NCBI GenBank assembly: GCA_964019695.1
Contig: OZ026520.1
Location: forward strand, 93,712,299 to 93,776,298
Reading direction: 5' to 3'
Source: Loripinus fragilis
Taxonomy: Eukaryota; Mollusca; Bivalvia; Lucinida; Lucinidae
DNA length: 64,000 nt
This document shows, in pieces, positions 1,774 to 27,622 of this stretch (positions are counted from its first letter, which is position 1; each line of letters opens with the position of its first letter). A program made the position numbers and the translations under genes. Under the pieces are notes generated by a model. The model did not search any database, was not told the DNA's origin, and was given only the letters and a program-made list of their open reading frames with translations.

Positions 1774-4700
1774 CTACGAAAACATAAAACAAATTCAATT
1801 ACAAGCACTTAATCAAAGATTAAGATTCTTATTTCTCAAAAACATGTTGTTGGTACTGTGAGCTTCCTTTAGCTTTAGTTAGGGGAAATATGTGTATTCT
1901 TGTAGTAGTGAATGGTATTTATCATATGGGGTCACTTCTGGGAGTGAGATAACGCCATGCAATAAAATCGATAAACCACTAGTGGTTTACAGATTTAGGG
2001 AAAGGCTATGCCACCCATAACAACATTGCGTACAAAATGACAAAGTTATAACGTTTTTACGGCAGTAATGAGACTTCAAAGTAAGCATTGTCATATGATA
2101 AAAAGAATCTCACATTCATACTCTTGTATTATTGAATTTATTAAACTTGTTGCGAAAAGAGATAAAATGCTCGGCAAGCCTCACATTTTATCTCATTTCT
2201 GCAACTCATTTAATAAATTCAATAAAACATGAGCAGTCATGTAAGATCCTCAATGTCTCTCTATGTGTTATCCTTAAATAACAGCAACTGCAGTAGACTT
2301 ATATTTCGTTTATTCATTTAATCTAAACTATTCACATTAGATCAGTTCCAGTATCCCTCAAGTCTATGTAGCTTCTCTATTCACAGGCCGAGTTCATATC
2401 CACAGGTGAAAGTTCAAATTTCCCAAAATTCTGAACTTTTGAGATTCAAATCTTTAAACTAATCATTAATAATTTCAAGTTAAATGGTCAATGGTCCTTA
2501 GATGAACTGAAAATAAATCAGAGAAGTTATAATCATCTGCCTAATTCAGCATTTTGAGACAGACTTTCTATGGAAAGTCAGCCTCAAAATCCTGAATTCA
2601 GGAATAAATCTGGAAACTTTCACCCATGCAATGATATCACTCTGGATATATAGTAGATTCTAGTTTCTTATAGATCTAGATTTAGTTTTCTTGTAAATCT
2701 AGATTAGAGTTTATAGTAAGTGTCTAAACAGGTTTCTAAATGACTTGGTATAATAAGTTTTATCAATCTAAGGGAAACTGTACAAATGAGTTCATATCTA
2801 AAATCCATGATTGACTCTTATTGATAGCCTCAGCCCAGTTTCAGCCAGCAAATCAACTGCTAGAAAGAGGTGTAGATATTTCTATCAGCCAATCTATGAC
2901 AATGATAATAATTAAGAATGTTTATAGACGGAAAGACACATGTGCTCATCAGTTACAAGCGAAAGTATGTGCACGATTACTGGTTAACTGCTTGTTCAAG
3001 CTTGCCCAGGAAAAAAGTGTGGTTAGGTGAACTGACCGTCCCGCAATGACCATAGCTGTTGACTTGGGACGTAAAGCAACAAAACAAACAAACAAACAAA
3101 CACATGTGCTCGTGTATAACCTAAATTCGACACACTTTGTTTTGATAGATAAATAGCAGTAATAGCCACTGGTATTTCGGTACTCAGCCATAAGGTACTG
3201 CAAGAGTCAATTCAACATGGGTGAGAGTTCAAAATATCTATCTTTGGATATTTAACTCTTAAAACTTGCAGTATGCCTTTAAAGCATGAATAATTTGAAG
3301 TTTAAATTCTGTCCCGTGAATACAACGCAGGGCTAGCAAACTTTCACAGATCTCAATGCACTGCAAGTGCATTTTAAAAGGTTTTCAATCTTCAAACTTG
3401 GTATATGTAGCTGGCGTTTACTAAACACAAGTCAGGCCCCCAGATAAGAGTGTGTAACAAAAAAATTATTTTTCTTATTTCTCAACCAAAACATATGTTG
3501 TGGGTACTCAAAAGAACCGCCTCGATGAGACGGTTCTTTTGAGCACCCAAAACACATGTTTTACCTCATGGGAAAGAAAATAATCGCAATTTTATGCTAA
3601 AATATTTTGCTTAACTGGCTCTATGGAAGTTAAACAGCAGCTGGTTAATGTTTAATTTGGACGACAACATTGAGAGGAAGTGAGTTTGAAATGCAAGCTC
3701 CTATTTTACCATGAAATCTGCCGCAAAACCAGATTAAAATTGACTGAAAAATAAGAAAGTTACAGATGTTTGTACAGTAGATAATTGAAAGCAATGGAGG
3801 GCAGCCATTTTTAGACTGAGTAACGTCACACAAGGCCCAAATTAAATATGCATAAACAGGATAACTAGTTTCCTGCCATTCAATTTAACTTGTTTGCATT
3901 TATAATCTTCTGTTGCAAATAGGTGATTTTGAAAGAACATCTGTAAAGTTTGCAATGAAATTGGGGATTTTATTGGCTTTTCAAAAATTACAGGAAGTAA
4001 ATTAAATTTTCAAAATGGCGGCCTCCATTGGCTGAATACAAGTCAGAATTCTGAATTTCGGATTACTATAACTTTCTTATTTTATATTCGATTTTGATTG
4101 GGTTTGCGGCAGATTTTATGGTTACATAATGGCTTTAATTTCAGATTCACTTGCTATCAGTGTTGCCGTCCCCTTTAATAGCGCCATTACTTACCCACCA
4201 AACCCACCACCATATTCATCGTTATCTGAAAAATGAAGAACAATCACAACTTGAGTAAAGATGCCATACACAGACTACAAAAATAGATAAATTCACTAAA
4301 TACAGATTCATTTAAGAAATGAATTCAATTTTTGGAATGTTGATGAAATCATGAATACTTCGGGTCTCTTGCAAAGTAAGTGAAGCCCTATGGGCTTCAT
4401 GTTATCTTTTAAGAGACCGGAAGTATTCATGATTCCATGAGAAAAAAATTGAATTTATTGCTTATATAAAATTTACATTTTATTAGGTGTGGCTCGCTGT
4501 CAATCACAACACAAAACTGGATTTTTTATGTTTTTCACATTGATTTTCGGCGATAACTTTTTTATTATTGATTTCAGTAAACTGTATTCGCGATGAAAGT
4601 TGTAGAGAAAAATTAGCGCCAACTTATCCAAGCGGTTCCAACGTCATAGATGCTGCAATTAACTCTGCGCATAGATGCACTCTTTGAGCATTTTAAGAAA

Positions 4701-7700
4701 AGCCCAAATAAACTAAGTCAAATATGTCAGTCAAAACCTTACATTGCACCGCCCCGATTCAATCAGACAGGCGACGGATGGCTTGTTCAAATATATTGGA
4801 AATCGCGCCTGATTCGCCCGTGCGTTAAGCTAGTTGGGTCACCTCAAAACTGTCTTTTTAGGAGCATGTGCATATGAGAAAAATGGCACGTCATGTGATA
4901 TCACAGCTTATGTACCTACAAATGATCATGCTCATAGTAGATTCTGAATATGCACGATATATTCTGAGCCTACATAGGGCAGGATTATGCTATAAACAAC
5001 CGTTGAATAATTGTATATACACCCCTTGTGAATATTCTTTTGAGACGAGCCCTTTCTGTCACACCTCTACGAAATTTACCTGTCAATAAAAGACTTAGAC
5101 AATTTGGCTGAATTCAATTTATTGCAAAATCTTCATCTATGTACACAAATATCTGTTTGTGCCACAAACTTTGGATCTCTTGGAGAAATCGGCGCTAATT
5201 TTTCTCTACAACTTTCATCGCGAACACAGTTTGCTAAAATTAATAACAAAAAAGTTATCGCCGAAATTCAATGTGAAAAACATAAAAAATCGAGTTTAGT
5301 ATCACTTCTGGCGAATGAGTTCGATGTTCGAAGTGAATTGCACGGGCAAGTGAGCTTGGCAGCTGTCAATCAAATTTGTGTAATTCATGAGGCTATGAAC
5401 AGTTGCAAAAATCTTAAGATTCATTAAAGGATTACTTCGAGAATGTAAATATTAGATGTTTACCCTTAACTTTACATACTGGGTAATTTTGCATGTGTTT
5501 TTAATTAACTTTCTCAAAAAAATTGTTGGCATAATACCATCAGTCAAACAGTTGGATTGAGATCAGACCTGAAGTTTAGTCATCACTAGCAGGATAAATC
5601 CACTTCTGATTTTAACCAGCTCATCCACATAGTTCATGCAGGTAAGGATCTGTGAAATTTAAGGACTTTCAAGGACTACAAAAGGACCTCAATTGTTAAA
5701 GAACTGGTCTTAATCACCATGGCCAAGTTCTAATGAAAAAAGTAAAGAGCCTCTGACGGTGGTAATGGGAATCACAGTGTATCGCTGAAATGATATCCCA
5801 CAGCCCAAAATGTGATGTCTGGGCGAGCCCGAACATTATCATTTGGTTATTTGGTGTGCACTCTTGAAAATCTTTTTTTCTTGTATAATGAAATAATTAG
5901 TACAAATAAGCTTTCTTTTCATAACCCATTAGTAATGGAAATATCACAACTTTTTAGCATATTTTTCTTTAGATTATGAAAATTGTCCATTTACTTAGTT
6001 CAGTTGGTAGATTATTTTGCACATACACTGTATCTATCTTATACACATATACTACATGGCCATTGACTAGGTGTACTTTACGCATGGATGAAGGGTTAAA
6101 GTACATTGCTGCATAATATTGCACCAGGTAAATACATTGTCATCAAGGTTGAATATGGACTACAGTTGCACTTCAAAATACTTCTTAACAAATCAGATAG
6201 AAAAAACAACAACAAAAATAATCATTAAAATGCTCATGATTTTGGACTTTAAAATACTTTCACTGTGATTTGTAATCGAGTATTGATGATGTAATACCCT
6301 TACACGTGCCAAAAAATTGATTTCTAAATGTTTTGGTGAAGAAAAAAACCCTACCCCCTTTGGTAGCCTCTCCTGTTTTGTTGTAGGGATCTGCATGCCT
6401 AATTATAACCTTAATTCGTTCCTAATACATCAAGTGTCCTATTCAAAAGGATACCAGTGATATCTTATACATAGGGAAGTTTTGGGAAGCATCTGAAAAA
6501 TGGGCAGATACCCTATCAAAGTGTCAGAAGTCCTTAATTTCATGCACTTTTCAAGACCTTGGAGCGATATTCCAGCACTTTTTAAGGCCTTTGAGTGATA
6601 TTCCAGCAATTTTCAAGGCCATTAAGTGATTTTCCCGCACTTTTCAAGACCCTGGAATGATATTCCAGCACTTTTCAAGACACTTTAATTTTAAATGACA
6701 TTCATTTGCAGGTGATTTCAAGCTTGTGTGACCCCTGTAGTTCCATGAAGTTCTAGGTGGAATGAAAAACAGTTTTTTTAAAGAAAATATATGTGCATGT
6801 GTGTTTGAATTTAATGTCACACCAACAGCCAAGGTCATAAAGAGATGGGGCCACGGCTTAAAGTCTCATAGAACAGACTGGAGAAGCCGGGCATCAAAAC
6901 TCCTACCACTGGTTTACAAGGGGAGTGGTTTATCCACTACACCACAGTGGCTCCTGACGAAAATATATAACCCAAGCTCATATGATAATGTATACTTACC
7001 ATCTCTTTTCACTGGTGGTTCTTCTAATATAGAAGGTGGTGGTGCAATTGCAGCTCCTGAAAATGACATAATACATTTGAGCCGTGATTTGTGATTTCCA
7101 ACTATGTGGCATTTTGACATGAATAGACTCAGACGAGCCTGTGCAGCCTCCTATTTAGCTTAGAAGCTCCAAATGATGTTCAGTCAGTTCATGTAGCTTA
7201 ATATTCATAGAATATTCATTTGATACATAAAAAGTGTTAGAGCTTACCAAAAATAGTAAAATCCAAGTACTTTTCAAGGCCTAACAGCCATTATCCAGCA
7301 CTTTTCAAGGCAGATTTAATGTTTAAGGACTTTTCAAGAAAGCCCTTCATATTAAGGTACTTTTCAAGACTGTGCAAAACCTGGCCCCGAGGTTATAAAG
7401 CTTTTTTCATGCTCAACTCAGATGAGCACAAAATTTATCCTGATCATAAATGTTAAAATGCCAACAATTGTTGGCATTTTAACATTATTAGCATGATAAA
7501 TACAATATTTGAGAGACTTAAAGCAAGAAACTTCTTCATTTTTTTATGAGTTGAAATTTTGTGCTCAGTTGAGTTGAGCATGAAAAAAGTTGCATAACCT
7601 TGGCACCAGTTCATGAGCATTTATGTTTGTTTGTTTGATTTGATTCTTTACGTCCCATCAACAATCTTTCAGTTAAACAGGGACGGGTCTTCCTGGGTTG

Positions 7701-10700
7701 AACCAGTACTAAGCTAGGATAAATGTGTCTTGCTCAAGGACCACAACACAGTGACAAAGACATTTATGAGATGCCACATTCTGCTTTGTCAATACACCCT
7801 GTTTCTATCTGGAAAAAAAATCAAACAAAAAATTTAGATTATTTAACAACTGCGGTCATCGACTTTAAAAGAAATTTTAACAATAACATGACATTTAGTA
7901 TACGCTCAAAACATAATTGACAATCTTTTTTTACATCTACTAGCACACTTCTTGTTCTGTAGGGACCAGAAGATTTAACACTCGATCTGACGACTTAACT
8001 TTTTTCTATCTTTCTACTTACCAGAATCTTGTTTTCCTGTAAAAAAGAAACCATATTGAAATCAATCATTTACATAGGTCCAGCTCAATAAAAAAAATTG
8101 TGGGTGTAAAATTGTGAATATTTTCTCATCTATCTGTTTAAACATTTGTTTTGGGGACTCAAAAGAACCGTCTCATTGAGACGGTTCTTTTGAGTACCCA
8201 CAACATATATTTTGGTTGAGAAATAAGAAAAATATTTTTAATTATATTCTCTTATATACAAACTGTAATTGTAATTGATCAACGTTTGAAAATCCAACAG
8301 AATTGGAAAATAACATCCAGTGTAAATATTATGATGCGCTTCAAAATTAATATGATAGTTGGTTAGACCCTTTAAAACCTTTAAAAGCATACAAGCCAGT
8401 TCATGATGTTTTGGTACTTAATGCATATATATGTCATTTTTTAACCCGATATATTTGGGAAACCCCTAAACGAGTACTTTTGCAAACAGTGAAGTCCTAG
8501 ATGAAATGCAGCATGATGCTGCATTTCATCAGGGTCTGCACTGTTTGTAATAGTAAAAAAAAATTCTGACAAAAGAATACAATATTTTTAAAATTAAAAC
8601 CTGACGTCCCTAGATATGTGCCATGGACTATCCCAAGTTAAATATCAAACCAGAAGGAAGAAACTATTGGTATACAAAGAGATAAACATGATCAGGTGTG
8701 CTAAACATGCAGAACTGGCAGCAGTAAAAGGGATTTAACTACCAATATCTCTTTTTTTGTTTTAGAATGGGATCTTTTCTGGAATTTTAGGAATCTGTAA
8801 ATTCAGAAAAATTCGTGAAAGTTTTGAAAAAAATAAAACCCTCACAAAATGGTGAAATTACTCTGCCTATAACTGATGTAGGCAAATCATGCTCCAGTCC
8901 CAAAATTTTAACATTGCAAACATGTCTTTTAATGTTTTCCGAGGAAATAAAATTCTCATGAAAATTTCCAAATTTACAGAATTTTCCAAATTTACAATTG
9001 AGAATGGAGACGAAATTCAGATCCCGACGCACCAATAAAAATCTCTGGGAGCCAAATAAACCCTTTTGCAGCTACAGATAAAATGTCTCTGAAAACTTCA
9101 TCTGCTGGAGTGGTCTGCTGCATGTAAATGCTTACGTCAATGAATAATTATGACATACAAACAGTTTGGACCCTGATCAGACTGCTGCTCCAAGAGGAGC
9201 AGTCTGATCTGCATCCACACTGTTTACTATAGAGAAATTTGAAATGAACTAGCAGATGATAATGCAGACAATATTTAGTCGCGATTAGCAGTTGAAGAGT
9301 TAATTTTGTTCAATTTGTAGTGCACTGGCTCATAATATATACTCAGCGTCAATGAAAAGTTACCAGTATCAAAGTTTCGATATTTCGGAAAATATATAAT
9401 GCAGCTCTTTGGCTACTGTTACGTTCATGTTTCTGGTCAACGACGGGCTGGTTTGGAGAGATAAAACAGTTACACGACCCCTGGAACTATGGTGCTCGTG
9501 ATGCACGTGCATTTTATGTTTTTTGCAGCTTTTAAGAAGTTGAAATCATCATTTTCAGAAGACAACATGCCAGAACATGCCCCAGACATTTTCATTGAAA
9601 ACGCCACCAAAATGGTTTAGGTTATCCCATTAAACGCGAAAAATGAGGATCAAATTTTAAGGTAGCACCAAAATTTTGCATTTCCTATACAATGCAATGG
9701 AAAATACAGGGGTCCGTCAAGGAATGATTACAATGCATTCGGGTGTGATGGATACTGGTTTCCATAGTGGTGATGCATGGCACCCTATGCCATAAAACTG
9801 AGTGTTGAAGTATCCGCAGTTCTTCGTACAGGATGAACTAAATATTGTCCTATGTTAAGTGTATGTGATTTACTGGTAACTTTTTACTGACGTTGAGTAT
9901 ATATTGTTTTTGTGATGATTCACAAATCTACTGTCCTGCCAGCCAAGAGTGACAGTGATCTTGTGTTTTGTTTACAATTATTAAGCAAAACATTAACTTG
10001 TACATTCCACTTAAGCTAATGAAAGTCGATAGATCACTTGTGTATTAATCCTATCCTGTGGATAGGATTAATAAACAGGATAGGATTAATAAACAAGTGA
10101 TCTATCGATTCTGAGTCCCTGATAACTGTGTAAACAAAAACTGATCTCTTAGCTGGCAGGACAGTATTATGACTACACTATAGATGAACTTTTTGAGCAT
10201 TCAGAATTTGAGAAAAGGAGAATTAATTGCATACATAGAAAGATTTGAACTTACTTCTGACAGGTCTTTCATATTCTTCCTCGTCATCTTCTCTCCTTCT
10301 TCTTGCTCTCTCCATTTCTCCTACATCTCTATCCTTCTCTCTATCTCTCCTTCTTCTGTCACCTCTGTCACCCCTAAACAAATTAAGCATTTCTTGATTG
10401 GTAGGATTTTCAATTATGAATCCATGATTACAAACAAATCTTGCTTGATTGTTAGGACTTTTCATTATGGACCTGAGATTACAAACAAATCTTGCTTGAT
10501 TGGTAGGACTTTTCATTATGGACCCACAATTACAAACGAATCTTGCTTGATTGGTAGGACTTTTCATTATGGACCCACGATTACAAACGAATCTTGCTTG
10601 ATTGGTAGGACTTTTCATTATGGACCCATGATTACAAACAAATCTTGCTTGATTGGTAGGACTTTTCATTATGGACCCACAATTACAAACAAATCTTGCT

Positions 10701-13700: not shown

Positions 13701-16700
13701 TCCAGACCAGGCCCGACACTTTGTCGGGCCTGGTCTGGGTCGAAACTGTTTGCAAATGTTATCAGCAGACGACACTAGTAGGTAAAGTTTTGATCCTTCT
13801 GAGAACAATATGTAAAGCTTTTATTGACCTTCACAGGACAAATTCCCACTCAAACGCTCGTAATTACAAGTGAAATCTAAAAAGGACGAGTAATTCTTTC
13901 CAAAGCACTCTTCATGAGGTGAGGGAGAAAAATCTGAAGGTGAAACTATCATTTTCTGAGTATTAACTGATGTCATTTTATGGGATGCAGTTCTGAAACT
14001 GACTGGGTAAATATCATTTTAGCAGTGATATAAGGAACTTTATTAGTCAAATTAAAAGTGTTTGTAATAAAGAACATAATGGAGTATTATGTAATATGAC
14101 AGTCATATTACATATTACTCCCTTATGTTCTCTATTGCATACATTTTTAAAGGAAAAGTGCATGTGTTTGAAGGACGAGTGAAAATTGTAAGTCACTCGT
14201 CCTGCAGGACAAGTGCAATATTGAATAATTTTTGTCCAGCTGACTTAATGCATTGAGTAACAAGGATTGGAAAGTTAAGTAACAAACCTGTTTCTATCAA
14301 AATCGTCTCCTCTATCCCTCTTCCTCTCATCATCTTCCTTCTGTCTCTGTTCCTTCTTCTTCTTAGTAATCTCCTCGTAATCATTTGGTCTGAGAGGATT
14401 GTACTCGTCCTTCACTCCCGTCAGTGAGGGGACAGGGTCTGAGGGTATAAAAGGGCTGCTACCTACAGCCACAGGTTGTTGGGGTTCTCTTGACAAGTCT
14501 CTTTCCAACTGAAATATGCAGGGAAAGCTAGAATTATATTATCTTTCTTTATACTTGTCTCAGGACATGTAAATAGTAATAATGAAATGTTATCAGGATG
14601 GACAAGTCAAGCATGGTATTTCCATAAACAATGTGTATCAAGTCGTGCATATTTCCATAAACAATGTGTTTCAAGTCAGGCATATTATTTCCATAAACAA
14701 TGTGTATCTAGATACCCAGCAGCCAAGTTTTTTGATGGATCAAACTTCTTTTAGCTATTTTTGTAGAGGGTAGAGGGTCACCTAATGACCATTTTTGCCA
14801 AATTATTTTCAATTCTTACCACTAGTTTCAGATTTTTTAAATTTTTCCCATAGGTAAATTATTTAAATTTGCCATGCCTCCTGACGGCCATGTTTTTTGA
14901 GGGATAACATTCATTTTAGCATTTTTGTAGGTTGCCCAGTGACAATTTCTACCAAATTATTTTGAATTCTGACCGCTGGTTTTAGAGGAGAAGTCCTTGA
15001 TAGCTTACGTTACCAAAATAAGCCACAACAAGATCCCTAAAAAGCATTAGGGTTGGCAGCAAAAAGTAGGGATGGTCGGACGATAGTAAACACACCTATT
15101 TTTGCCTAAATTTGATCCCTGCCTGCTTACAAACATGACATTATAAATATTTACTAACAAGAATATGGTGTACTCACCCTTTCTGTCTGCATATTAAACT
15201 TCAGTGGTCCCTCTGTATTATCAGCTGTTCCCTTTAGATCAACAAAAGGTGCCATATTGTTGTTACGACTTCTACTCTATAATTGTACAAACATCTACTC
15301 ACCCTTCCTGTCTGCATATTAAACTTCAGTGGTCCCTCTGTATTATCAGCTGTTCTCTTTAGATCCACAACAGGTGCCATATTGTTGTTACGACTTCTAC
15401 TCTATAATTGTACAAACATCTACTCACCCTTGCTGCATATTAAACTTCAGTGGTCCCTCTGTATTATCAGCTGTTCTCTTTAGATCAACTACAGGTGCCA
15501 TATTGTTGTTACCACTTCTACTCTATAATTGTACAAACATCTACTCACCCTTCCTGTCTGCATATTAAACTTCAGTGGTCCCTCTGTATTATCAGCTGTT
15601 CTCTTTAGATCAACAACAGGTGCCATATTGTTGTTACGACTTCTACTCTATAATTGTACAAACATCTACTCACCCTTCCTGTCTGCATATTAAACTTCAG
15701 TGGTCCCTCTGTATTATCAGCTGTTCTCTTTAGATCAACAACAGGTGCCATATTGTTGTTACGACTTCTACTCTATAATTGTACAAACATCTACTCACCC
15801 TTCCTGTCTGCATATTAAACTTCAGTGGTCCCTCTGTATTATCAGCTGTTCTCTTTAGATCAACTACAGGTGCCATATTGTTGTTACGACTTCTACTCTA
15901 TAATTGTACAAACATCTACTCACCCTTCCTGTCTGCATATTAAACTTCAGTGGTCCCTCTGTATTATCAGCTGTTCTCTTTAGATCAACAACAGGTGCCA
16001 TATTGTTGTTACGACTTCTACTCTATAATTGTACAAACATCTACTCACCCTTCCTGTCTGCATATTAAACTTCAGTGGTCCCTCTGTATTATCAGCTGTT
16101 CTCTTTAGATCAACAACAGGTGCCATATTGTTGTTACGACTTCTACTCTATAATTGTACAAACATCTACTCACCCTTCCTGTCTGCATATTAAACTTCAG
16201 TGGTCCCTCTGTATTATCAGCTGTTCTCTTTAGATCAACAACAGGTGCCATATTGTTGTTACGACTTCTACTCTATAATTGTACAAACATCTACTCACCC
16301 TTCCTGTCTGCATATTAAACTTCAGTGGTCCCTCTGTATTATCAGCTGTTCTCTTTAGATCAACTACAGGTGCCATATTGTTGTTACGACTTCTACTCTA
16401 TAATTGTACAAACATCTACTCACCCTTCCTGTCTGCATATTAAACTTCAGTGGTCCCTCTGTATTATCAGCTGTTCTCTTTAGATCAACAACAGGTGCCA
16501 TATTGTTGTTATGACTTCTACTCTATAATTGTACAAACATCTACTCACCCTTCCTGTCTGCATATTAAACTTCAGTGGTCCCTCTGTATTATCAGCTGTT
16601 CTCTTTAGATCCACAACAGGTGCCATATTGTTGTTACGACTTCTACTCTATAATTGTACAAACACTTACTCACCCTTCCTGTCTGCATATTAAACTTCAG

Positions 16701-19700
16701 TGGTCCCTCTGTATTATCAGCTGTTCTCTTTAGATCAACTACAGGTGCCATATTGTTGTTACGACTTCTACTCTATAATTGTACAAACATCTACTCACCC
16801 TTCCTGTCTGCATATTAAACTTCAGTGGTCCCTCTGTATTATCAGCTGTTCTCTTTAGATCAACAACAGGTGCCATATTGTTGTTATGACTTCTACTCTA
16901 TAATTGTACAAACATCTACTCACCCTTCCTGTCTGCATATTAAACTTCAGTGGTCCCTCTGTATTATCAGCTGTTCTCTTTAGATCAACAACAGGTGCCA
17001 TATTGTTGTTACGACTTCTACTCTATAATTGTACAAACATCTACTCACCCTTCCTGTCTGCATATTAAACTTCAGTGGTCCCTCTGTATTATCAGCTGTT
17101 CTCTTTAGATCAACAACAGGTGCCATATTGTTGTTATGACTTCTACTCTATAATAACACAAACATCTACTCACCCTTCCTGTCTGCATATTAAACCTCAG
17201 TGGTCTACTCACCCTTCCTATCTGCATATTAAACTTCAGTGGTCCCTCTGTATTATCAGCTGTTCTCTTTAGATCAACTACAGGTGCCATATTGTTGTTA
17301 TGACTTCTACTCTATAATTGTACAAACATCAAGTCACCCTTCCTGTCTGCATATTAAACTTCAGTGGTCCCTCTGTATTATCAGCTGTTCTCTTTAGATC
17401 AACTACAGGTGCCATATTGTTGTTACGACTTCTACTCAATAATTGTACAAACATCTACTCACCCTTCCTGTCTGCATATTAAACTTCAGTGGTCCCTCTG
17501 TATTATCAGCTGTTCTCTTTAGATCAACAACAGGTGCCATATTGTTGCTATGACTACTACTCTATAATTGTACAAACATCTACTCACCCTTCCTGTCTGC
17601 ATATTAAACTTCAGTGGTCCCTCTGTATTATCAGCTGTTCTCTTTAGATCAACAACAGGTGCCATATTGTTGTTACGACTTCTACTCTATAATTGTACAA
17701 ACATCTACTCACCCTTCCTGTCTGCATATTAAACTTCAGTGGTCCCTCTGTATTATCAGCTGTTCTCTTTAGATCAACTACAGGTGCCATATTGTTGTTA
17801 CGACTTCTACTCTATAATTGTACAAACATCTACTCACCCTTCCTGTCTGCATATTAAACTTCAGTGGTCCCTCTGTATTATCAGCTGTTCTCTTTAGATC
17901 AACAACAGGTGCCATATTGTTGTTACGACTTCTACTCTATAATTGTACAAACATCTACTCACCCTTCCTGTCTGCATATTAAACTTCAGTGGTCCCTCTG
18001 TATTATCAGCTGTTCTCTTTAGATCAACAACAGGTGCCATATTGTTGTTACGACTTCTACTCTATAATTGTACAAACATCTACTCACCCTTCCTGTCTGC
18101 ATATTAAACTTCAGTGGTCCCTCTGTATTATCAGCTGTTCTCTTTAGATCAACTACAGGTGCCATATTGTTGTTACGACTTCTACTCTATAATTGTACAA
18201 ACATCTACTCACCCTTCCTGTCTGCATATTAAACTTCAGTGGTCCCTCTGTATTATCAGCTGTTCTCTTTAGATCAACAACAGGTGCCATATTGTTGTTA
18301 CGACTTCTACTCTATAATTGTACAAACATCTACTCACCCTTCCTGTCTGCATATTAAACTTCAGTGGTCCCTCTGTATTATCAGCTGTTCTCTTTAGATC
18401 AACAACAGGTGCCATATTGTTGTTACGACTTCTACTCTATAATTGTACAAACATCTACTCACCCTTCCTGTCTGCATATTAAACTTCAGTGGTCCCTCTG
18501 TATTATCAGCTGTTCTCTTTAGATCAACAACAGGTGCCATATTGTTGTTACGACTTCTACTCTATAATTGTACAAACATCTACTCACCCTTCCTGTCTGC
18601 ATATTAAACTTCAGTGGTCCCTCTGTATTATCAGCTGTTCTCTTTAGATCAACTACAGGTGCCATATTGTTGTTACGACTTCTATTCTATAATTGTACAA
18701 ACATCTACTCACCCTTCCTGTCTGCATATTAAACTTCAGTGGTCCCTCTGTATTATCAGCTGTTCTCTTTAGAACAACAACAGGTGCCATATTGTTGTTA
18801 CGACTTCTACTCTATAATTGTACAAACATCTACTCACCCTTCCTGTCTGCATATTAAACTTCAGTGGTCCCTCAGTATTATCAGCTGTTCTCTTTCGATC
18901 AACAACAGGTGCCATATTGTTGTTACGACTTCTACTCTATAATTGTACAAACATCTACTCACCCTTCCTGTCTGCATATTAAACTTCAGTGGTCCCTCTG
19001 TATTATCAGCTGTTCTCTTTAGATCAACAACAGGTGCCATATTGTTGTTACGACTTCTACTCTATAATTGTACAAACATCTACTCACCCTTCCTGTCTGC
19101 ATATTAAACTTCAGTGGTCCCTCTGTATTATCAGCTGTTCTCTTTAGATCAACTACAGGTGCCATATTGTTGTTACGACTTCTACTCTATAATTGTACAA
19201 ACATCTACTCACCCTTCCTGTCTGCATATTAAACTTCAGTGGTCCCTCTGTATTATCAGCTGTTCTCTTTAGATCAACAACAGGTGCCATATTGTTGTTA
19301 CGACTTCTACTCTATAATTGTACAAACATCAACTCACCCTTCCTGTCTGCATATTAAACTTCAGTGGTCCCTCTGTATTATCAGCTGTTCTCTTTAGATC
19401 AACAACAGGTGCCATATTGTTGTTACGACTTCTACTCTTTAATTGTACAAACATCTACTCACCCTTCCTGTCTGCATATTAAACTTCAGTGGTCCCTCTG
19501 TATTATCAGCTGTTCTCTTTAGATCAACAACAGGTGCCATATTGTTGTTACGACTTCTACTCTATAATTGTACAAACATCTACTCACCATTCCTGTCTGC
19601 ATATTAAACTTCAGTGGTCCCTCTGTATTATCAGCTGTTCTCTTTAGATCAACTACAGGTGCCATATTGTTGTTATGACTTCTACTCTATAATTGTACAA

Positions 19701-22700
19701 ACATCTACTCACCCTTCCTGTCTGCATATTAAACCTCAGTGGTCTACTCACCCTTCCTGTCTGCATATTAAACTTCAGTGGTCCCTCTGTATTATCAGCT
19801 GTTCTCTTTAGATCAACAACAGGTGCCATATTGTTGTTACGACTTCTACTCTATAATTGTACAAACATCAACTCACCCTTCCTGTCTGCATATTAAACTT
19901 CAGTGGTCCCTCTGTATTATCAGCTGTTCTCTTTAGATCAACTACAGGTGCCATATTGTTGTTACAACTTCTACTCTATAATTGTACAAACATCTACTCA
20001 CCCTTCCTGTCTGCATATTAAACTTCAGTGGTCCCTCTGTATTATCAGCTGTTCTCTTTAGATCAACAACAGGTGCCATATTGTTGTTATGACTTCTACT
20101 CTATAATTGTACAAACATCTACTCACCCTTCCTGTCTGCATATTAAACTTCAGTGGTCCCTCTGTATTATCAGCTGTTCTCTTTAGATCAACAACAGGTG
20201 CCATATTGTTGTTACGACTTCTACTCTATAATTGTACAAACATCTACTCACCCTTCCTGTCTGCATATTAAACTTCAGTGGTCCCTCTGTATTATCAGCT
20301 GTTCTCTTTAGATCAACAACAGGTGCCATATTGTTGTTACGACTTCTACTCTATAATTGTACAAACATCTACTCACCCTTCCTGTCTGCATATTAAACTT
20401 CAGTTGTCCCTCTGTATTATCAGCTGTTCTCTTTAGATCAACTACAGGTGCCATATTGTTGTTACGACTTCTACTCTATAATTGTACAAACATCAACTCA
20501 CCCTTCCTGTCTGCATATTAAACTTCAGTGGTCCCTCTGTATTATCAGCTGTTCTCTTTAGATCAACTACAGGTGCCATATTGTTGTTACGACTTCTATT
20601 CTATAATTGTACAAACATCTACTCACCCTTCCTGTCTGCATATTAAACTTCAGTGGTCCCTCTGTATTATCAGCTGTTCTCTTTAGAACAACAACAGGTG
20701 CCATATTGTTGTTACGACTTCTACTCTATAATTGTACAAACATCTACTCACCCTTCCTGTCTGCATATTAAACTTCAGTGGTCCCTCTGTATTATCAGCT
20801 GTTCTCTTTAGATCAACAACAGGTGCCATATTGTTGTTACGACTTCTACTCTATAATTGTACAAACATCTACTCACCCTTCCTGTCTGCATATTAAACTT
20901 CAGTGGTCCCTCTGTATTATCAGCTGTTCTCTTTAGATCAACAACAGGTGCCATATTGTTGTTACGACTTCTACTCTATAATTGTACAAACATCTACTCA
21001 CCCTTCCTGTCTGCATATTAAACTTCAGTGGTCCCTCTGTATTATCAGCTGTTCTCTTTAGATCAACTACAGGTGCCATATTGTTGTTACGACTTCTACT
21101 CTATAATTGTACAAACATCTACTCACCCTTCCTGTCTGCATATTAAACTTCAGTGGTCCCTCTGTATTATCAGCTGTTCTCTTTAGATCAACAACAGGTG
21201 CCATATTGTTGTTACGACTTCTACTCTATAATTGTACAAACATCAACTCACCCTTCCTGTCTGCATATTAAACTTCAGTGGTCCCTCTGTATTATCAGCT
21301 GTTCTCTTTAGATCAACAACAGGTGCCATATTGTTGTTACGACTTCTACTCTATAATTGTACAAACATCTACTCACCCTTCCTGTCTGCATATTAAACTT
21401 CAGTGGTCCCTCTGTATTATCAGCTGTTCTCTTTAGATCAACAACAGGTGCCATATTGTTGTTACGACTTCTACTCTATAATTGTACAAACATCTACTCA
21501 CCATTCCTGTCTGCATATTAAACTTCAGTGGTCCCTCTGTATTATCAGCTGTTCTCTTTAGATCAACTACAGGTGCCATATTGTTGTTATGACTTCTACT
21601 CTATAATTGTACAAACATCTACTCACCCTTCCTGTCTGCATATTAAACCTCAGTGGTCTACTCACCCTTCCTGTCTGCATATTAAACTTCAGTGGTCCCT
21701 CTGTATTATCAGCTGTTCTCTTTAGATCAACAACAGGTGCCATATTGTTGTTACGACTTCTACTCTATAATTGTACAAACATCAACTCACCCTTCCTGTC
21801 TGCATATTAAACTTCAGTGGTCCCTCTGTATTATCAGCTGTTCTCTTTAGATCAACTACAGGTGCCATATTGTTGTTACAACTTCTACTCTATAATTGTA
21901 CAAACATCTACTCACCCTTCCTGTCTGCATATTAAACTTCAGTGGTCCCTCTGTATTATCAGCTGTTCTCTTTAGATCAACAACAGGTGCCATATTGTTG
22001 TTATGACTTCTACTCTATAATTGTACAAACATCTACTCACCCTTCCTGTCTGCATATTAAACTTCAGTGGTCCCTCTGTATTATCAGCTGTTCTCTTTAG
22101 ATCAACAACAGGTGCCATATTGTTGTTATGACTTCTACTCTCATAGCTCCAGATAAGGATTGGAGGCAATTGGGTATTTACCCACCTCTTTTTGGCTTAA
22201 TTGGGTATTTCAAATTTTAAATTGGGTATTTCAAGTTTTTGTATTGGGTATCCATCTCAATGAAAGCGGGCCTCGTTTCTCTTGATCTTTTTTGTTTACT
22301 TTCGGTTTCACTTCAGAAAGCACACTGGCAATTTAAGAATATCTGAGATCGCTATTTCATACTTATTTCGAAAAACCAACGTATCTATCAAGTCATCTTT
22401 GATTCTTCGAACCACCAATGCGGTATTAGGGTTAGTTACGATATGATATTCAATTGCTAAATATTGGGTAAAGCTAAACAGCGCCAAGAATGTTCCTGGA
22501 CTGGTTTACAGTTTAATAAACTAGATTCGGCGCCACGTCGTCTATATATTTGTACCCAACAACAGCTTGAGATGCGAAAAACGACACTCGGAAACTGAAT
22601 ACTATAGCGTCATACGCAACGAAAAAGTTCCGAATTGAGTATCAAGGATTTTTATTGTGTTTTTGTACGCACAGAAATGAATTTAATTGCGTTTTCACGT

Positions 22701-25700
22701 TCACGAAATTGCGTAAATACGCAATACGCAGCCTTATCTGGAGCTATGACTCTATAATTACACAAACATCTACTCACCCTTCCTGTCTGCATATTAAACC
22801 TCAGTGGTCTACTCACCCTTCCTGTCTGCATATTAAACTTCAGTGGTCCCTCTGTATTATCAGCTGTTCTCTTTAGATCAACTACAGGTGCCATATTGTT
22901 TTTACGACTTCTACTCTATAATTGTACAAACATCAAGTCACCCTTCCTGTCTGCATATTAAACTTCAGTGGTCCCTCTGTATTATCAGCTGTTCTCTTTA
23001 GATCAACTACAGGTGCCATATTGTTGTTACGACTTCTACTCTATAATTGTACAAACATCTACTCACCCTTCCTGTCTGCATATTAAACTTCAGTGGTCCC
23101 TCTGTATTATCAGCTGTTCTCTTTAGATCAACAACAGGTGCCATATTGTTGTTACGACTTCTACTCTATAATTGTACAAACATCTACTCACCCTATCTGT
23201 CTGCATATTAAACTTCAGTGGTCCCTCTGTATTATCAGCTGTTCTCTTTAGATCAACAACAGGTGCCATATTGTTGTTACGACTTCTACTCTATAATTGT
23301 ACAAACATCTACTCACCCTTCCTGTCTGCATATTAAACTTCAGTGGTCCCTCTGTATTATCAGCTTTTCTCTTTAGATCAACAACAGGTGCCATATTGTT
23401 GTTATGACTTCTACTCTATAATTGTACAAACATCTACTCACCCTTCCTGTCTGCATATTAAACTTCAGTGGTCCCTCTGTATTATCAGCTGTTCTCTTTA
23501 GATCAACTACAGGTGCCATATTGTTGTTACGACTTCTACTCTATAATTGTACAAACATCTACTCACCCTTCCTGTCTGCATATTAAACTTCAGTGGTCCC
23601 TCTGTATTATCAGCTGTTCTCTTTAGATCAACAACAGGTGCCATATTGTTGTTACGACTTCTACTCTATAATTGTACAAACATCTACTCACCCTTCCTGT
23701 CTGCATATTAAACTTCAGTGGTCCCTCTGTATTATATGCTGTTCTCTTTAGATCAACAACAGGTGCCATATTGTTGTTACAACTTCTACTCTATAATTGT
23801 ACAAACATCTACTCACCCTTCCTGTCTGCATATTAAACTTCAGTGGTCCCTCTGTATTATCAGCTGTTCTCTTTAGATCAACAACAGGTGCCATATTGTT
23901 GTTACGACTTCTACTCTATAATTGTACAAACATCTACTCACCCTTCCTGTCTGCATATTAAACTTCAGTGGTCCCTCTGTATTATCAGCTGTTCTCTTTA
24001 GATCAACAACAGGTGCCATATTGTTGTTACGACTTCTACTCTATAATTGTACAAACATCTACTCACCCTTCCTGTCTGCATATTAAACTTCAGTGGTCCC
24101 TCTGTATTATCAGCTGTTCTCTTTAGATCAACTACAGGTGCCATATTGTTGTTACGACTTCTACTCTATAATTGTACAAACATCTACTCACCCTTCCTGT
24201 CTGCATATTAAACTTCAGTGGTCCCTCTGTATTATCAGCTGTTCTCTTTAGATCAACTACAGGTGCCATATTGTTGTTACGACTTCTACTCTATAATTGT
24301 ACAAACATCTACTCACCCTTCCTGTCTGCATATTAAACTTCAGTGGTCCCTCTGTATTATCAGCTGTTCTCTTTAGATCAACAACAGGTGCCATATTGTT
24401 GTTATGACTTCTACTCTATAATTGTACAAACATCTACTCACCCTTCCTGTCTGCATATTAAACTTCAGTGGTCCCTCTGTATTATCAGCTGTTCTCTTTA
24501 GATCAACAACAGGTGCCATATTGTTGTTACGACTTCTACTCTACAATTGTACAAAAAAAACAAAAACATTTCAGGTGCCTGCAAAAATGCATCTGAAAAT
24601 GTGGCCCAGTTCCTGTGTTAACCAGACTATAGTCTAGTACCTTTAGTCGGATCATAGAAGCGATAAAACTCTCTCTGGTTTTACGCGCTGCACATGTCTG
24701 GTTCACTAGACAAACAGGACCGGATCTGTGGTCGGACCATAGTTGATTGGTTCCCGTCTTCCAATGCAAACTTAGAATTGTGGGACACCTGTATGTTTTG
24801 TATCGATGGCTGTGATTGGTGGACTGTTTCACTGAGGAGGAACACTGACAGTCGGAAGAGTCCTAGTGTGTCTATGGTTAACGCTCAAACTCCACCGTTG
24901 TCTGCTTATGTTATCTGCTTTATATATTTGTTTACATTGCTGCCTAATTTAAGTATACAGGCAAACAGTGTGGACCCAGGTCAGACTGCTCTTATAAGAG
25001 CAGTCTGATAAAAGTTTACAATTTTTTCGGAGAGGCTTCTCGAATATTTTAGCCAGCCAACTTTTATTGTGCTTGTTACTTTACGTGTTATAAAGGACAA
25101 GTAATAAAATTGTGATCCATTTGGGCTAGCAGACTTATCACATTGTCAAGCAACCTAGGCCCAGAGCCATCAATGAAATTAAAGCAATTAAAGAGCAATA
25201 ACTATTGTGCATCGCCCCACTTCACATGTACATAATTACTCCATGGTCATATATATTCAGTTGAAGTTTCATGAAATTCCATCCTTTGGTTACCTATTTA
25301 TGGCTGAGGATGGTAAGAATCATTGAAACTTCGGCAATCAAAGGACAATAACTCCTCTATAACTGATGACTTCACTTGCATAACCACACTATGGTCATAT
25401 ATACATGTATTCAGTATAAGTTTCATGAAATTCCATCCACTGGTTACGAGGACGGAAAGACAGACAACGCCAAACCTATATCCCTCCGCCTTTGGTGGAT
25501 AAAAACAAACCTTTGATGATGGTGTGACTTGTGCTTTCTTGGCTTGAAGCTGAGATTTCATCAGTTTGTAATTAGAAGACCAGCCAGCTGGAATGACAAA
25601 AGAAATTTTGAGCCACCAAGAGAGTTCAGTACTTATTACATTGGCCCAGATAAACAAAATATTTGAGTGTAAAATTGTTAACATTTCCTTATCTATCACA

Positions 25701-27294
25701 GGGCTTACTCTGGCTCAGAATTTGTTGCAGCACACACTTTAGCCAAATGGAAAAAATTGGAGCCAATGTGATTAACTTTAGCCAAGGTTTTAGCCAGAAA
25801 GTAGTATCAACAAGTTGTTTTGTATTTTACTCTTTGCCGCTAGGGGCGACTCTTGTCGTCTGCTGATAACTTTTGCAAACAGTTTAGACCCAGATCAGGC
25901 CCGACAAAACATCGGGCCTGATCTGGATCCAAACTGTTTGACACCCTGATGGTATTGAAAAAAATCCAACATCCAAAGAGTAAAATATGGCAGGATAACA
26001 AAGTGTGAAGGAATTATAAAAGCAATATTTGATAATCCAAAAAGCTGATTAAAACACACTTTGCACCACCTAGACTGTACTTTTAGCCAATGACTTATAA
26101 GTGTAACCACTTCATTTTTAGTAGCAAATGCTCAAAAGATGTCATTTGAAATAATTGTTGATGAAGCATGAAACACAAGGCAAGACGGACATCCAATGAC
26201 CACAAAAGCTCACCTCCAGCCTACATGCATGGCTGAGATGCACAAAAATGAAAACATTATGATTCTACTTATTTTAAACTATTTAAAAAACACCTTTAAT
26301 GCTTCTTTTTACTTCGTATTGATGTTACAATACCTTTACACATGAAAGTAATGGATTAATAAATATTTTGCAAAGTCAAATTTTGCACCCCATTCCCCTT
26401 TGATAGCATCTCCTGCTTTGTCATAAGAGTTTGTCTGTTCAATTATAAACATTACCGGTTTCATTTCAAATAAATCAAACATTTTAGTCAACCTTGAGGA
26501 TACAAGAGATATATCTAAAAACATAGGGAAGTTTGGGAAGAATCTGATAAATAGGCTGATACATTAACCCTTTGTATACTATTGGATTCTTCCCTCTGGT
26601 TTGATACAATAAACTTAGGATAGTCCATTGTACATATCTATGGTTGTCAGGTTAAAATTTTCAAAAAATATTGTATTATTGTGTCTGAAGATCTTTGTTA
26701 CCTTTACAAACAGTGTACACCCTGATGAAATGCAGCTTTATGCTGCATTTCATCTGGTTGTTCACCGTTTGCAAAAGTACTTGTTTAGGGGTTTCCCGAA
26801 TACAAAGGGTTAATAAAGGGTCAGAGGTTCTTTGATTCCCTGTCAGAGAATATATACATGTACACTGATCATTAAAGAATATGGAATTCTGGAATGTAAG
26901 GTTAACAAGTATGTGAGGTGACCCTTAAAAAAATTACTCCTCGCTCAATATGCCACCTACCCCCCAAAAAATTATAGCTGTTTCGGATAATTATTCTTTT
27001 AAATTCTAAATTTACACATTTTTACTTTATTTTCAATGTCTTTTTAACAAATCTGTGATTTTTTTAAAAAATACCTACCTACCTACCCACCTGGAAAATC
27101 ATGAGTCGGGCAACAGCAAACAAATTAATTTTAAGGATGGCCTGAGAGTTTTTTTATTTCAAGTTAATCTTTTGCTTTCACTATAGGTTAAAATGTCTTA
27201 GCGTTACCTCAAAGACAAGTCTACAACACTTACCAACCACATCTTTGCCCCCTTTCCTCTCATGGTCAATGTCAAGGTCATCATATAGTGACAT
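1622..27294 (-). CDS. RBM17: Splicing factor SPF45 (RBM17), N-terminal two thirds, eight coding exons, 3' end outside window
   Basis: SPF45 is a nuclear spliceosome-associated protein that helps choose 3' splice sites and acts at the A complex. It has a disordered basic N-terminus, a G-patch and a C-terminal RRM-type UHM that binds ULM motifs in SF1, U2AF2 and SF3B1. Here coding exons at 27234-27294, 25511-25587, 24442-24540 (or a tandem copy), 14288-14508, 10255-10373, 7000-7056, 4195-4225 and 1622-1773 join with matching phases into 272 codons plus one base. The conserved pieces appear in family order: start MSLYDDL, GWSSNYKLMKSQLQ, MAPVVDLKR, DEYNPLRPNDYEE, an RS/RD/E-rich stretch, AAIAPPPS, then the G-patch. 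A consensus acceptor 18 nt upstream of the start codon implies an upstream noncoding exon that I could not place. The RRM exons are not in the first 1.6 kb. The oddity is exon 3, which is amplified about 69-fold. Identity is firm; isoform structure is unknown. Confidence 0.93.
2113..2243. mobile_element. Hairpin MITE, about 130 bp
   Basis: Arms TTGAATTTATTAAACTTG and GAGATAAAATG pair with CATTTTATCTC and AATAAATTCAA around GGCAAGCC. The flanks CATACTCTTG/CATGAGCAGT are diverged. No coding potential. Confidence 0.6.
2948..3099 (+). mobile_element. SINE family A, 5'-truncated, 12-bp TSD
   Basis: This copy carries the 3' part of the 1130-1460 SINE in the opposite orientation and ends in AAAC repeats. 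The 12-bp target duplication ACACATGTGCTC is at 2936-2947 and 3100-3111. Truncation removes the tRNA head. Confidence 0.85.
3473..3590. mobile_element. Hairpin MITE family H1, copy 1
   Basis: A perfect stem pairs AAGAACCG with CGGTTCTT around CTCGATGAGA. It sits within the conserved context TATTTCTCAACCAAAACATA and GGGTACTCAAAAG. Two more full copies occur at 8137-8245 and 27623-27735, and an end fragment at about 63515-63600. Confidence 0.75.
3648..4184. mobile_element. Inverted-repeat element beside RBM17 microexon
   Basis: The left arm ATGAAATCTGCCGCAAAACC and AATAAGAAAGTTACAG pairs with the right arm GGTTTGCGGCAGATTTTATG and its surroundings. A central pair GGCAGCCATTTT/AAAATGGCGGCC is also present. 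It ends within about 10 bp of the donor at 4194. Confidence 0.65.
4195..4225 (-). CDS. RBM17: RBM17 coding exon 7, 31-nt microexon
   Basis: Acceptor CATTTTTCAG and donor GTAAGT bound 31 nt. These read DNDEYGGGFG in the one frame that links exon 6 (phase 1) to exon 8 (phase 2). The vertebrate protein has a longer linker here, ending in a Gly-Gly before the G-patch. Without this exon, exons 6 and 8 do not join in frame. The exon is too short to recognise by coding content alone; the call rests on splice sites, phase and the GG junction. A palindromic repeat ends within about 10 bp of its donor. Confidence 0.75.
4490..5380. mobile_element. About 890-bp element with about 130-bp inverted arms
   Basis: Left GGCGATAACTTTTTTATTAT and GCGATGAAAGTTGTAGAGAA are mirrored by right TTCTCTACAACTTTCATCGC and AAAAAGTTATCGCC. 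Short frames inside (4650-5427) match no family I recognise. A separate hairpin at 4318-4465 (GAATACTTC...GAAGTATTC type) precedes it. Confidence 0.68.
5431..6779. other. RBM17 intron 6, middle part
   Basis: It holds CTTGAAAAGT-type dispersed repeats (about 6530-6700, related to 7245-7380 and 61195-61500) and a repeat at 6170-6500 shared with 26320-26540. The rest is AT-rich sequence with no exon or gene that I can see. Confidence 0.5.
6780..6955 (-). mobile_element. tRNA-derived SINE (family C)
   Basis: Read on the minus strand from 6954, GGAGCCACTGTGGTGTAGTG resembles a tRNA 5' half with A box TGGTGTAGTGG. A B box GGAGTTTTGATGCC follows 40 bp later, then an unrelated body to about 6780. 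It lies in RBM17 intron 6, about 45 bp from exon 6. Confidence 0.72.
7000..7056 (-). CDS. RBM17: RBM17 coding exon 6 (AAIAPPPS motif)
   Basis: The 57-nt exon lies between acceptor CATTTTCAG and donor GTAAGT. It encodes AAIAPPPSILEEPPVKRD, matching the conserved AAIAPP segment upstream of the SPF45 G-patch. Phases are 1 in and 1 out, consistent with its neighbours. A tRNA-derived SINE lies just downstream in the intron (to 6955), and a MITE half begins about 20 bp upstream. Confidence 0.9.
7078..7230. mobile_element. Half copy of the TGAGCC MITE
   Basis: TGATTTCCAACTATGTGGCA, GACTCAGACGAGCCTGTGCA and CTCCAAATGATGTTC match the left half of 63632-63873. The right TIR is missing. It starts about 20 bp upstream of RBM17 exon 6. 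Confidence 0.7.
7381..7607. mobile_element. Palindromic MITE with GAGCATGAAAAAAG arms
   Basis: Left CTTTTTTCATGCTCAACTCA and right TGAGTTGAGCATGAAAAAAG are inverted, with a central TGCCAACAATTGTTGGCA palindrome. A second, split copy spans 11909-12710. Confidence 0.75.
7625..7765 (-). mobile_element. SINE family B, truncated copy
   Basis: The body shared with 28603-28785 is recognisable: TTTACGTCCC, ACGGGTCTTCCTGGGTTGAA, CCAGTACTAA and the CTCAAGGAC motif. The tRNA-like head is absent after about 7765. Confidence 0.75.
8137..8245. mobile_element. Hairpin MITE family H1, copy 2
   Basis: The core ACCGTCTCATTGAGACGGT lies between mirrored AAAACAT-rich arms. It ends in TTTGGTTGAGAAATAAG, the inverted form of the copy 1 left arm. 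Confidence 0.75.
8246..9339. other. RBM17 intron 5, decayed repeats
   Basis: It contains a GATGAAATGCAGC hairpin element (8441-8680) and a repeat at 8870-9000 related to the first 130 bp of the window. A GATCAGACTGCTGCTCC hairpin lies at 9160-9235. No exon is recognised. Confidence 0.5.
9342..9897. mobile_element. 556-bp TA-flanked inverted-repeat element in RBM17 intron 5
   Basis: The left end CTCAGCGTCAATGAAAAGTT and the inverted right end match over about 28 bp. Both are flanked by TA (9340-9341, 9898-9899). The terminal CTCA resembles the 50905 element, so a Tc1/mariner-type MITE is likely. Confidence 0.75.
9931..10164. mobile_element. 234-bp TA-flanked palindromic MITE
   Basis: It begins CTGTCCTGCCAGC and ends GCTGGCAGGACAG, between TA dinucleotides. 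Arms carry GATAGATCACTTGT and its complement, and the centre carries repeats of ATCCTATCCTGT. It ends about 90 bp from RBM17 exon 5. Confidence 0.75.
10255..10373 (-). CDS. RBM17: RBM17 coding exon 5 (RD/RE-rich)
   Basis: The 119-nt exon encodes about 40 residues of arginine, aspartate and glutamate repeats ending EEYERPVR, matching the charged region of SPF45 before the AAIAPP motif. The acceptor is TTGTTTAG and the donor GTAAGT. The acceptor sits immediately beside a 51-bp minisatellite whose unit resembles this intron's own 3' end. The reading frame continues without a stop from about nine repeat units into the exon. Confidence 0.9.
10385..11915. repeat. 51-bp minisatellite, about 30 copies, in RBM17 intron 4
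   Basis: The 51-base unit, with core TTGATTGGTAGGACTTTTCA followed by TTATGGACCCAC, repeats to about 11915. A subfamily with TTCCATCATGG occupies 11460-11600 and 11720-11900, which suggests a further internal duplication. Because 51 is divisible by three, long ORFs appear on both strands, but these are repeat translations rather than genes. On the minus strand the last nine or so units read in frame into RBM17 exon 5. The end nearest the exon resembles the intron's own 3' end. Confidence 0.95.
11909..12710. mobile_element. GAGCATGAAA MITE copy split by a nested MITE (12087-12653)
   Basis: The outer arms (about 11909-12010 and 12655-12705) match 7381-7607. The nested element has TIR ATGTGCATTAAGG with GGCCCCCC, mirrored by GGGGGGGCC and CCTTAATGCACAT, over about 567 bp. 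No coding content is seen. Confidence 0.72.
12715..14280. other. RBM17 intron 4, proximal part
   Basis: A short fragment at 13376-13410 matches (inverted) the 3' end of the LINE repeat at 37540-37560. A CCTCAAAATCCTGAATTCAG hairpin lies at 13470-13525, related to 2545-2610 and 47350-47560. A GGCCCGAC hairpin MITE is at 13578-13785, and paired AAGGACGAGT segments at 13880-14215. No exon beyond those called. Confidence 0.55.
14288..14508 (-). CDS. RBM17: RBM17 coding exon 4
   Basis: The 221-nt exon has a strong acceptor (CATATTTCAG) and the donor GTTTGT. It encodes 73 residues plus two bases. It begins LERDLSREPQQP, contains the conserved DEYNPLRPNDYEE block, and ends in a K/E/R/D-rich stretch. 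This corresponds to the segment before the charged coiled region of vertebrate SPF45. It enters in phase 0, so any number of 99-nt exon 3 copies keeps it in frame. Confidence 0.92.
14600..14710. repeat. Short tandem repeat, three units of about 40 bp
   Basis: ATTTCCATAAACAATGTGT recurs three times with a CAAGTC spacer. It lies in the RBM17 intron between the exon 3 array and exon 4. The remaining intron to 15170 shows nothing further. Confidence 0.7.
15178..15276 (-). CDS. RBM17: RBM17 exon 3, transcript-last and most diverged copy
   Basis: This is the copy next to exon 4. It still encodes 33 residues in phase 0 but reads MAPFVDLKG where the others have MAPVVDLKR, and ends QTER rather than QTGR. 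The donor GTGAGT is intact, and the sequence beyond it is unique intron. Edge copies of an array are expected to diverge because they escape homogenisation. Use of this copy would change the conserved LKR triplet. Confidence 0.7.
22142..22748. mobile_element. 607-bp MITE inside the exon array, 17-bp perfect TIR, 5-bp TSD
   Basis: The element starts CATAGCTCCAGATAAGG and ends with the exact reverse complement. It is flanked by the direct repeat ACTCT (22137-22141 and 22749-22753), which is the array's own sequence duplicated. No transposase is seen. It landed exactly on a unit's acceptor (TTATAG/AGTAG on the minus strand). The superfamily is not assigned; the 5-bp duplication is the only clue. 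Confidence 0.9.
24442..24540 (-). CDS. RBM17: RBM17 coding exon 3, transcript-first copy, the only copy with a good acceptor
   Basis: Ninety-nine bases, phase 0 to phase 0, encode 33 residues with the conserved core MAPVVDLKR and end in QTGR before donor GTGAGT. This copy lies nearest exon 2. Unlike every other copy it is preceded by a T-rich polypyrimidine tract (24549-24571) and a distinct flank, which marks it as the copy most likely used with exon 2. The equivalent position in vertebrate SPF45 has one such segment, so a single copy gives a normal protein. Confidence 0.85.
25190..25505. repeat. Dispersed repeat ending at the RBM17 exon 2 donor
   Basis: Two similar halves contain GAGCAATAACT/GGACAATAACTCC, ATGGTCATATAT and TTTCATGAAATTCCATCC. 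It ends with AACCTATATCCCTCCGCCTT then GGTGGAT. The form suggests a LINE or SINE 3' module common in bivalves; the family is not assigned. Confidence 0.55.
25511..25587 (-). CDS. RBM17: RBM17 coding exon 2
   Basis: The 77-nt exon runs from acceptor CATTCCAG to donor GTTTGT. With the one base carried from exon 1 it encodes 26 residues including GWSSNYKLMKSQLQAKKAQ, the conserved helical N-terminal segment of SPF45. It ends in phase 0. The donor is weak (GTTTGT). A dispersed bivalve-type repeat (about 25190-25505) ends only a few bases into the intron, so the intron start is largely repeat-derived. Confidence 0.92.
25710..26075. repeat. About 350-bp segment duplicated at 27810-28090
   Basis: Both copies share AGCCAAATGGAAAAAATTGG, AGAAAGTAGTATCAACAAG, a GGGGCGACT MITE end and AGTGTGAAGGAAT. 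They are direct and about 2.1 kb apart on either side of RBM17 exon 1. The CTTTGCC-type MITE is present in both, so it predates the copying or travels with the repeat. Confidence 0.7.
26574..26813. mobile_element. TTAA-flanked MITE, 240 bp, complete
   Basis: The ends TTAACCCTTTGTATAC and GAATACAAAGGGTTAA are inverted. The central hairpin GATGAAATGCAGC/GCTGCATTTCATC is perfect. A related copy without clear ends lies at 8441-8680. Confidence 0.8.
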
Positions 27295-27460: not shown

Positions 27461-27622
27461 AGACTGATACTGAAATATTTTACTAACCCATGCATAAATA
27501 TTTTTACTAACCCATGTACAAAAACTGCTGGAGGAAAAGTGCCACTGCAAAGTATAAACTTCTTATTATATTCTGAGTACTGTTCTCAGGACTTTAGTTA
27601 AGAGTGCGTAAAGAAATTTCAT

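Follow-up and report, generated by a model that had tools for sequence, protein, structure and literature searches.

One of two complete genes for splicing factor SPF45 (RBM17) in the lucinid bivalve Loripinus fragilis contains 69 tandem copies of its own coding exon 3. The array lies in a window of 64,000 nucleotides (nt), positions 93,712,299 to 93,776,298 of contig OZ026520.1 (C9) in assembly GCA_964019695.1, and positions without a contig prefix refer to this window. The array is probably an exon-derived intronic minisatellite in intron 3, of which only the 5'-most copy is spliced while the other 68 are removed and the protein keeps its normal size. An earlier note on this DNA had identified the unit of 125 base pairs (bp) as the symmetric, 99-nt coding exon 3 of RBM17/SPF45 in about 69 copies. 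This identification was borne out: a local BLAST search of the window returned 69 matches to the 99-nt exon, all within the array (BLAST had cut 6 of them at one end, and these were completed by position), the exon has phase 0/0, and the array-bearing gene is otherwise complete.

The exon 3 array and its gene

The gene is on the minus strand, with coding exons 1-8 inside the window and exons 9-12 to its left on the same contig.

27234..27294, minus strand: SPF45 coding exon 1
25511..25587, minus strand: SPF45 coding exon 2
24442..24540, minus strand: SPF45 coding exon 3, 5'-most copy, identical to the consensus and with a full poly-U tract upstream; the copy putatively in use
15178..24540, minus strand: SPF45 coding exon 3 in 69 tandem copies, in units of 125 bp (99-nt exon plus 26-nt gap)
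22141..22749, no strand assigned: DNA-transposon-like insert, 609 bp, ending in perfect inverted repeats of 18 bp and bounded by a GAG target duplication, read directly from the sequence
15428..15522, minus strand: frameshifted exon 3 copy, 95 nt, from BLAST and copy-by-copy comparison
15178..15276, minus strand: 3'-most exon 3 copy, with V11F, R16G and G32E and the donor GTGAGTAC
14288..14508, minus strand: SPF45 coding exon 4
10255..10373, minus strand: SPF45 coding exon 5
7000..7056, minus strand: SPF45 coding exon 6
4195..4225, minus strand: SPF45 coding exon 7
1622..1773, minus strand: SPF45 coding exon 8 (G-patch)
C9:93704016-93712148, left of the window: SPF45 coding exons 9-12

When the 5'-most copy serves as exon 3, the 12 exons stay in phase and give an open frame of 388 codons. 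The predicted 388-residue protein shows the succession found in SPF45, a G-patch followed by a C-terminal UHM, which is RRM-like (Pfam: G-patch 9e-14, RRM_1 4e-6), and the best solved chain for residues 287-387 is 'Splicing factor 45' (PDB 2pe8, E = 8e-49). The best match in the protein database, where L. fragilis has no entry, is 79% identical. Among the matches listed, the best 120 of 1125, the nearest named relatives are bivalve proteins called 'splicing factor 45-like', and identity to the first 272 residues is 67% in Mercenaria, 65% in Ruditapes, and 63% in Dreissena.

Tandem Repeats Finder reported overlapping 125-bp rows from 15171 to 24555. The exon is 99 nt long in 68 of the 69 copies, with the consensus SRSRNNNMAPVVDLKRTADNTEGPLKFNMQTGR; 30 of these 68 full-length copies equal the consensus, and their mean pairwise difference is 1.5%. 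Most gaps between copies (64 of 68) measure 26 nt, with the consensus GTGAGTAGATGTTTGTACAATTATAG. Three gaps measure 65 nt, each containing a 39-bp partial unit, and one measures 677 nt and consists of one partial unit and the 609-bp insert. Near-identical units of 125 bp are hard to assemble, and an artefact that inflated the copy number would be one explanation for an array of this kind. Yet a 1,914-bp block of the array is present twice in versions that differ at 6 of the 1643 bp compared, the single insert stands in one place, partial units stand at four places, and both flanks of the array are single sequence. We regard an assembly artefact as extremely improbable.

A paralogue with a single exon 3

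When the best candidates in the 1.99-gigabase assembly were scored, the unit was found 70 times: in the array and at one further place, C9:94378383-94378501. This place belongs to another complete SPF45 gene with one exon 3, situated 642 kilobases (kb) away in the same orientation. The earlier note had considered that the array might lie outside a transcribed RBM17 gene, with an intact single-exon locus elsewhere; such a locus exists, while the array itself stands inside a gene that is otherwise complete. Intron 3, counted from the 5'-most copy to exon 4, is 9,933 nt long at the array locus as opposed to 1,408 nt in the paralogue.

The paralogue also encodes 388 residues, 2 of which (40 and 45, in exon 2) differ from the protein of the array locus; exon 4 distinguishes the loci at synonymous sites. 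With exon 3 included, the two coding sequences are separated by 39 synonymous changes and 3 nonsynonymous ones (synonymous divergence, dS, 0.178; nonsynonymous divergence, dN, 0.0033; ratio 0.018). The gene was carried as a whole by a segmental duplication, C9:93700366-93753399 (about 53 kb) and 94353443-94396649 (about 43 kb). Chained alignments between the loci amount to 14.9 kb with an average identity of 86%; the chaining took coding and non-coding pieces of at least 100 bp on the same strand and dropped shorter ones, and the first region includes 7,748 N bases. Two chain pieces fall outside the duplicated stretch, and some of the outer pieces may be repeats. The longest block, upstream of exon 1 (27473-28642), is 91.4% identical over 1190 bp. 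A retained haplotype, that is, a false duplication, was ruled out for the second locus by the 86% identity and the dS of 0.178, more than is expected of alleles. From their sequences the two loci look like constrained paralogues, not haplotypes, and the array belongs to one of them.

Exon 3 of the paralogue is identical to the array consensus over all 99 nt. About 3.4 changes were expected (0.159 synonymous differences per site over about 21 sites) and none was seen (Poisson probability about 0.03), a result that points only weakly to exchange between the two genes.

Searched at the protein level with SPF45, the genome gave the two C9 loci and one weak match on C2. The latter (C2:89796875-89797078) is 42% identical over residues 283-347, has one TGA inside, and could represent either a relic or a related UHM gene.

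A second tandem array is present in the array-bearing gene at 10393-11908, with 51-bp units and 30 BLAST matches. Its end lies some 20 bp short of the exon 5 acceptor, and a 222-codon frame without stops extends from the array across that exon. The 51-bp unit was not matched anywhere in the 40 kb inspected around the paralogue gene.

Changes among the copies are as expected without selection

The 68 full-length copies contain 21 distinct changes, 5 synonymous and 16 nonsynonymous; T33A and G11A are among the variants of the internal copies. The synonymous share of 23.8% compares with 21.5% expected from the genetic code (18.2% with the observed spectrum of changes; P = 0.79), so the changes have the ratio expected without selection. 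The ratio of 5:16 differs from the 39:3 between the paralogous coding sequences (Fisher test, P = 4e-8), in a comparison that includes few variants (21), counted as distinct against the consensus for the copies and pairwise for the paralogues. The density of distinct variants is 0.212 per exon site and 0.231 per site of the 26-nt gaps. The PVxDLK core is broken in four copies (V11F, D13V twice, and L14R), at residues that 113-120 of the 120 relatives listed retain.

The exon 3 motif occurs once in each of the best 120 of 1125 matched homologues. A query of 12 joined exon 3 peptides returned one protein with one copy and no multi-copy protein; these searches were limited to about 476 amino acids for the homologues and 693 for the 12-fold query, for which only the 7995 candidates sharing most words were scored, and long multi-copy forms fall outside these lengths. 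A report of an RBM17 exon 3 array in bivalves was not found in open-licence papers, in searches that were not exhaustive.

Splice sites and gaps of the internal copies

The earlier note took the copies to be splice-competent and allowed for a protein with one or many 33-residue segments. The data do not favor this view: gaps of 26 nt separate most copies, at the array locus a full poly-U tract precedes the 5'-most copy alone, a frameshift affects one copy and one is without the AG in front of it, and the changes among copies contrast with those between the paralogues as described above. With the array counted as one intron, the shortest other intron among the 22 coding-region introns of both genes is 565 nt. 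The U-rich tract between ATG and GTACAATT is 14 nt long ahead of copy 1, 16 nt long in the paralogue, and 3 nt long in the internal consensus, so that the poly-U tract is 11-13 nt shorter at the internal acceptors. The longest pyrimidine run is 3 before 67 of the 68 internal copies, versus 4-11 at the 22 genuine acceptors, copy 1 included. On these sequence features the internal acceptors appear weak, not provably dead, and the 5'-most copy is probably the one that is used.

Among human introns, lengths down to 43 nt are named as spliced in the passages cited here (PMC4463651, PMC8363638), and in a screen of introns of 37-65 nt, 15 of 22 were supported (PMC4463651). In two human test introns a distance of less than 47 nt between donor and branchpoint largely abolished splicing, according to the part of the study drawn on here (PMC11291888). 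Intron 7 of HNRNPH1 is described with a donor-to-branchpoint distance of 27 nt. Since introns of certain ciliates measure only about 25 bp (PMC5014332), 26 nt is possible for some spliceosomes; that a gap of this length is spliced at the array locus is only unlikely. A frame continued through the first gap meets a stop once 55 codons have passed, counted from the start of exon 3, and one giant exon was rejected as a candidate for this reason.

Besides the limits on variant counts and protein searches given above, several observations weigh against silent internal copies. Their donors are strong, with AGG/GTGAGT at 65 of the 69 copies, and AG precedes 68 of 69. In best 12-nt pyrimidine content the internal acceptors (7 in 64 of 68, 8 in 3, and 10 in 1) overlap with the genuine ones, which range over 7-11 and include two of the 22 with a content of 7. 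The copy at 22139, which follows the insert, reaches 10 and in this respect resembles genuine acceptors. The upstream AG stands at 16 in 59 of 68 internal copies, versus 17-67 at genuine acceptors, 5 of 22 of which have it at 17. Splicing that skips one copy would remove a 151-nt intron and preserve the frame, and the three 65-nt gaps are long enough for introns. The identity of copy 1 with the consensus is weak evidence for its use, as 30 of 68 copies match the consensus. Upstream-AG distance and 12-nt pyrimidine content were tried as proof that the internal acceptors are dead, and were rejected because the genuine acceptors overlap with the internal values or nearly reach them.

Two alternatives build on these observations. 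In the first, some transcripts would join non-adjacent copies, for example every other copy across 151-nt introns, and the protein would gain several 33-residue segments. The symmetric exon, intact in length in nearly all copies, would permit this, as would the donors, the AG dinucleotides, and the length of the skip-one intron. Such an expanded protein is nevertheless highly improbable, given changes among the copies that look unselected, a frameshifted copy, shortened poly-U tracts in the internal units, and relatives that have the motif once each, with no multi-copy form found within the length limits of the search, in a database that lacks the species. In the second, the 26-nt gaps would block joint inclusion and any single copy could be used. 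Adjacent copies 26 nt apart are indeed not easily both spliced, and the donors are near-identical. Against such a choice of one among many stand a protein that would be little changed by it, since 30 of 68 copies are identical, an exposure of the copies to selection of which none is seen, and the position of the only full poly-U tract before the 5'-most copy. We consider this second alternative unlikely.

Proposed origin of the array

We propose that in a tandem duplication the sequence some 9 nt past the donor became joined to the acceptor end, which would yield the 125-bp unit; the sequence of the junction suggests this step. If the preceding ATG is the same ATG, 11-13 nt of the poly-U tract would have been lost at this junction. 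Unequal exchange and block duplication, for which the 1,914-bp block provides one instance, may then have raised the copy number to 69. The array would be tolerated by the gene with a first copy that has a full acceptor and a strong donor, and with 26-nt gaps that are presumably not spliceable. Its silence is probably the reason why the gene tolerates it. The copies differ by 1.5%, compared with a dS of 0.178 between the loci, and because of this the array likely grew after the gene duplication, as judged from sequence divergence; an older array that had been homogenised would give the same picture.

A further explanation assigns the internal copies a role that does not depend on their being spliced. 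Their donors and truncated acceptors would bind early splicing factors, hold back intron 3, and let SPF45 feed back on its own production as a splicing decoy or dose sensor. This idea is attractive because decoy exons reportedly hold back long introns and because human SPF45 serves truncated tracts. In the passages drawn on here, decoy exons promote the retention of long introns, with OGT, ARGLU1, and SF3B1 named (PMC12017769), and human SPF45 is described as serving the truncated pyrimidine tracts of short introns, the acceptor type of the internal copies (PMC8363638). Retention of intron 3 would also meet a stop. The units, however, show no sign of selection, variants are as dense in the gaps as in the exons, and the paralogue is complete without an array. 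The resemblance lies in units that look like exons and carry splice sites within a long intron; it ends with the decoys described in that source as lying in single introns with measured retention (PMC12017769), as opposed to 68 units with weak acceptors in the 9,933 nt between copy 1 and exon 4. A decoy function is distinctly unlikely. In an extended form, SPF45 would read its own array, with intron 3 retained or spliced to in-frame multi-copy forms according to the SPF45 level while the paralogue supplied the basal protein; this extension is very unlikely.

Other features of the window

An open frame of 631 amino acids at 30666-32561 includes a TDGSCLGNPG stretch. The frame looks like a piece of a retrotransposon, the stretch being RNase H-like. 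A 146-bp tandem repeat of 5.9 copies is located at 46188-47041.

Discussion

Intronic minisatellites consist of tandem units, with block duplication, partial units, and changes as in the absence of selection. The SPF45 array has the same traits and differs in that its unit comprises an entire coding exon of the gene in which it lies, both splice sites included. In Dscam1-like clusters of mutually exclusive exons the copies have diverged and give different proteins. These clusters, as presented in the cited parts of two papers (PMC9013439, PMC8042237), have homologous exons side by side like the SPF45 array, where a short gap could likewise block joint inclusion. A selected variety is not seen in the SPF45 array, with 30 of 68 copies identical and a ratio of 5:16. 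A likeness in repeated exons within a gene is offered by LPA KIV-2, for which the cited portion of one source describes near-identical exon-bearing tandem units (PMC11201333), and the 69 copies with 1.5% difference are of this nature. LPA alleles carry 1-40 units according to one abstract, each spanning about 5.6 kb with its introns some 4 and 1.2 kb long, against a unit of 125 bp and a gap of 26 nt in SPF45, so that introns of ordinary length are lacking in 64 of 68 gaps. The LPA KIV-2 copies are counted in the protein; those of SPF45 look untranslated, their 5:16 ratio speaking against translation. We therefore file the SPF45 array as an exon-derived intronic minisatellite and neither with LPA KIV-2 nor with mutually exclusive clusters, because it lacks ordinary introns and selected variety, respectively.

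The array provides a natural experiment on how the spliceosome selects a single exon when dozens of near-identical ones are present, beside a complete one-copy paralogue. The first copy, many internal copies, and the paralogue are distinguishable by sequence, so RNA data could separate a silent array from an expanded protein and from a decoy. The locus also shows how far a constrained gene tolerates the amplification of one of its exons.

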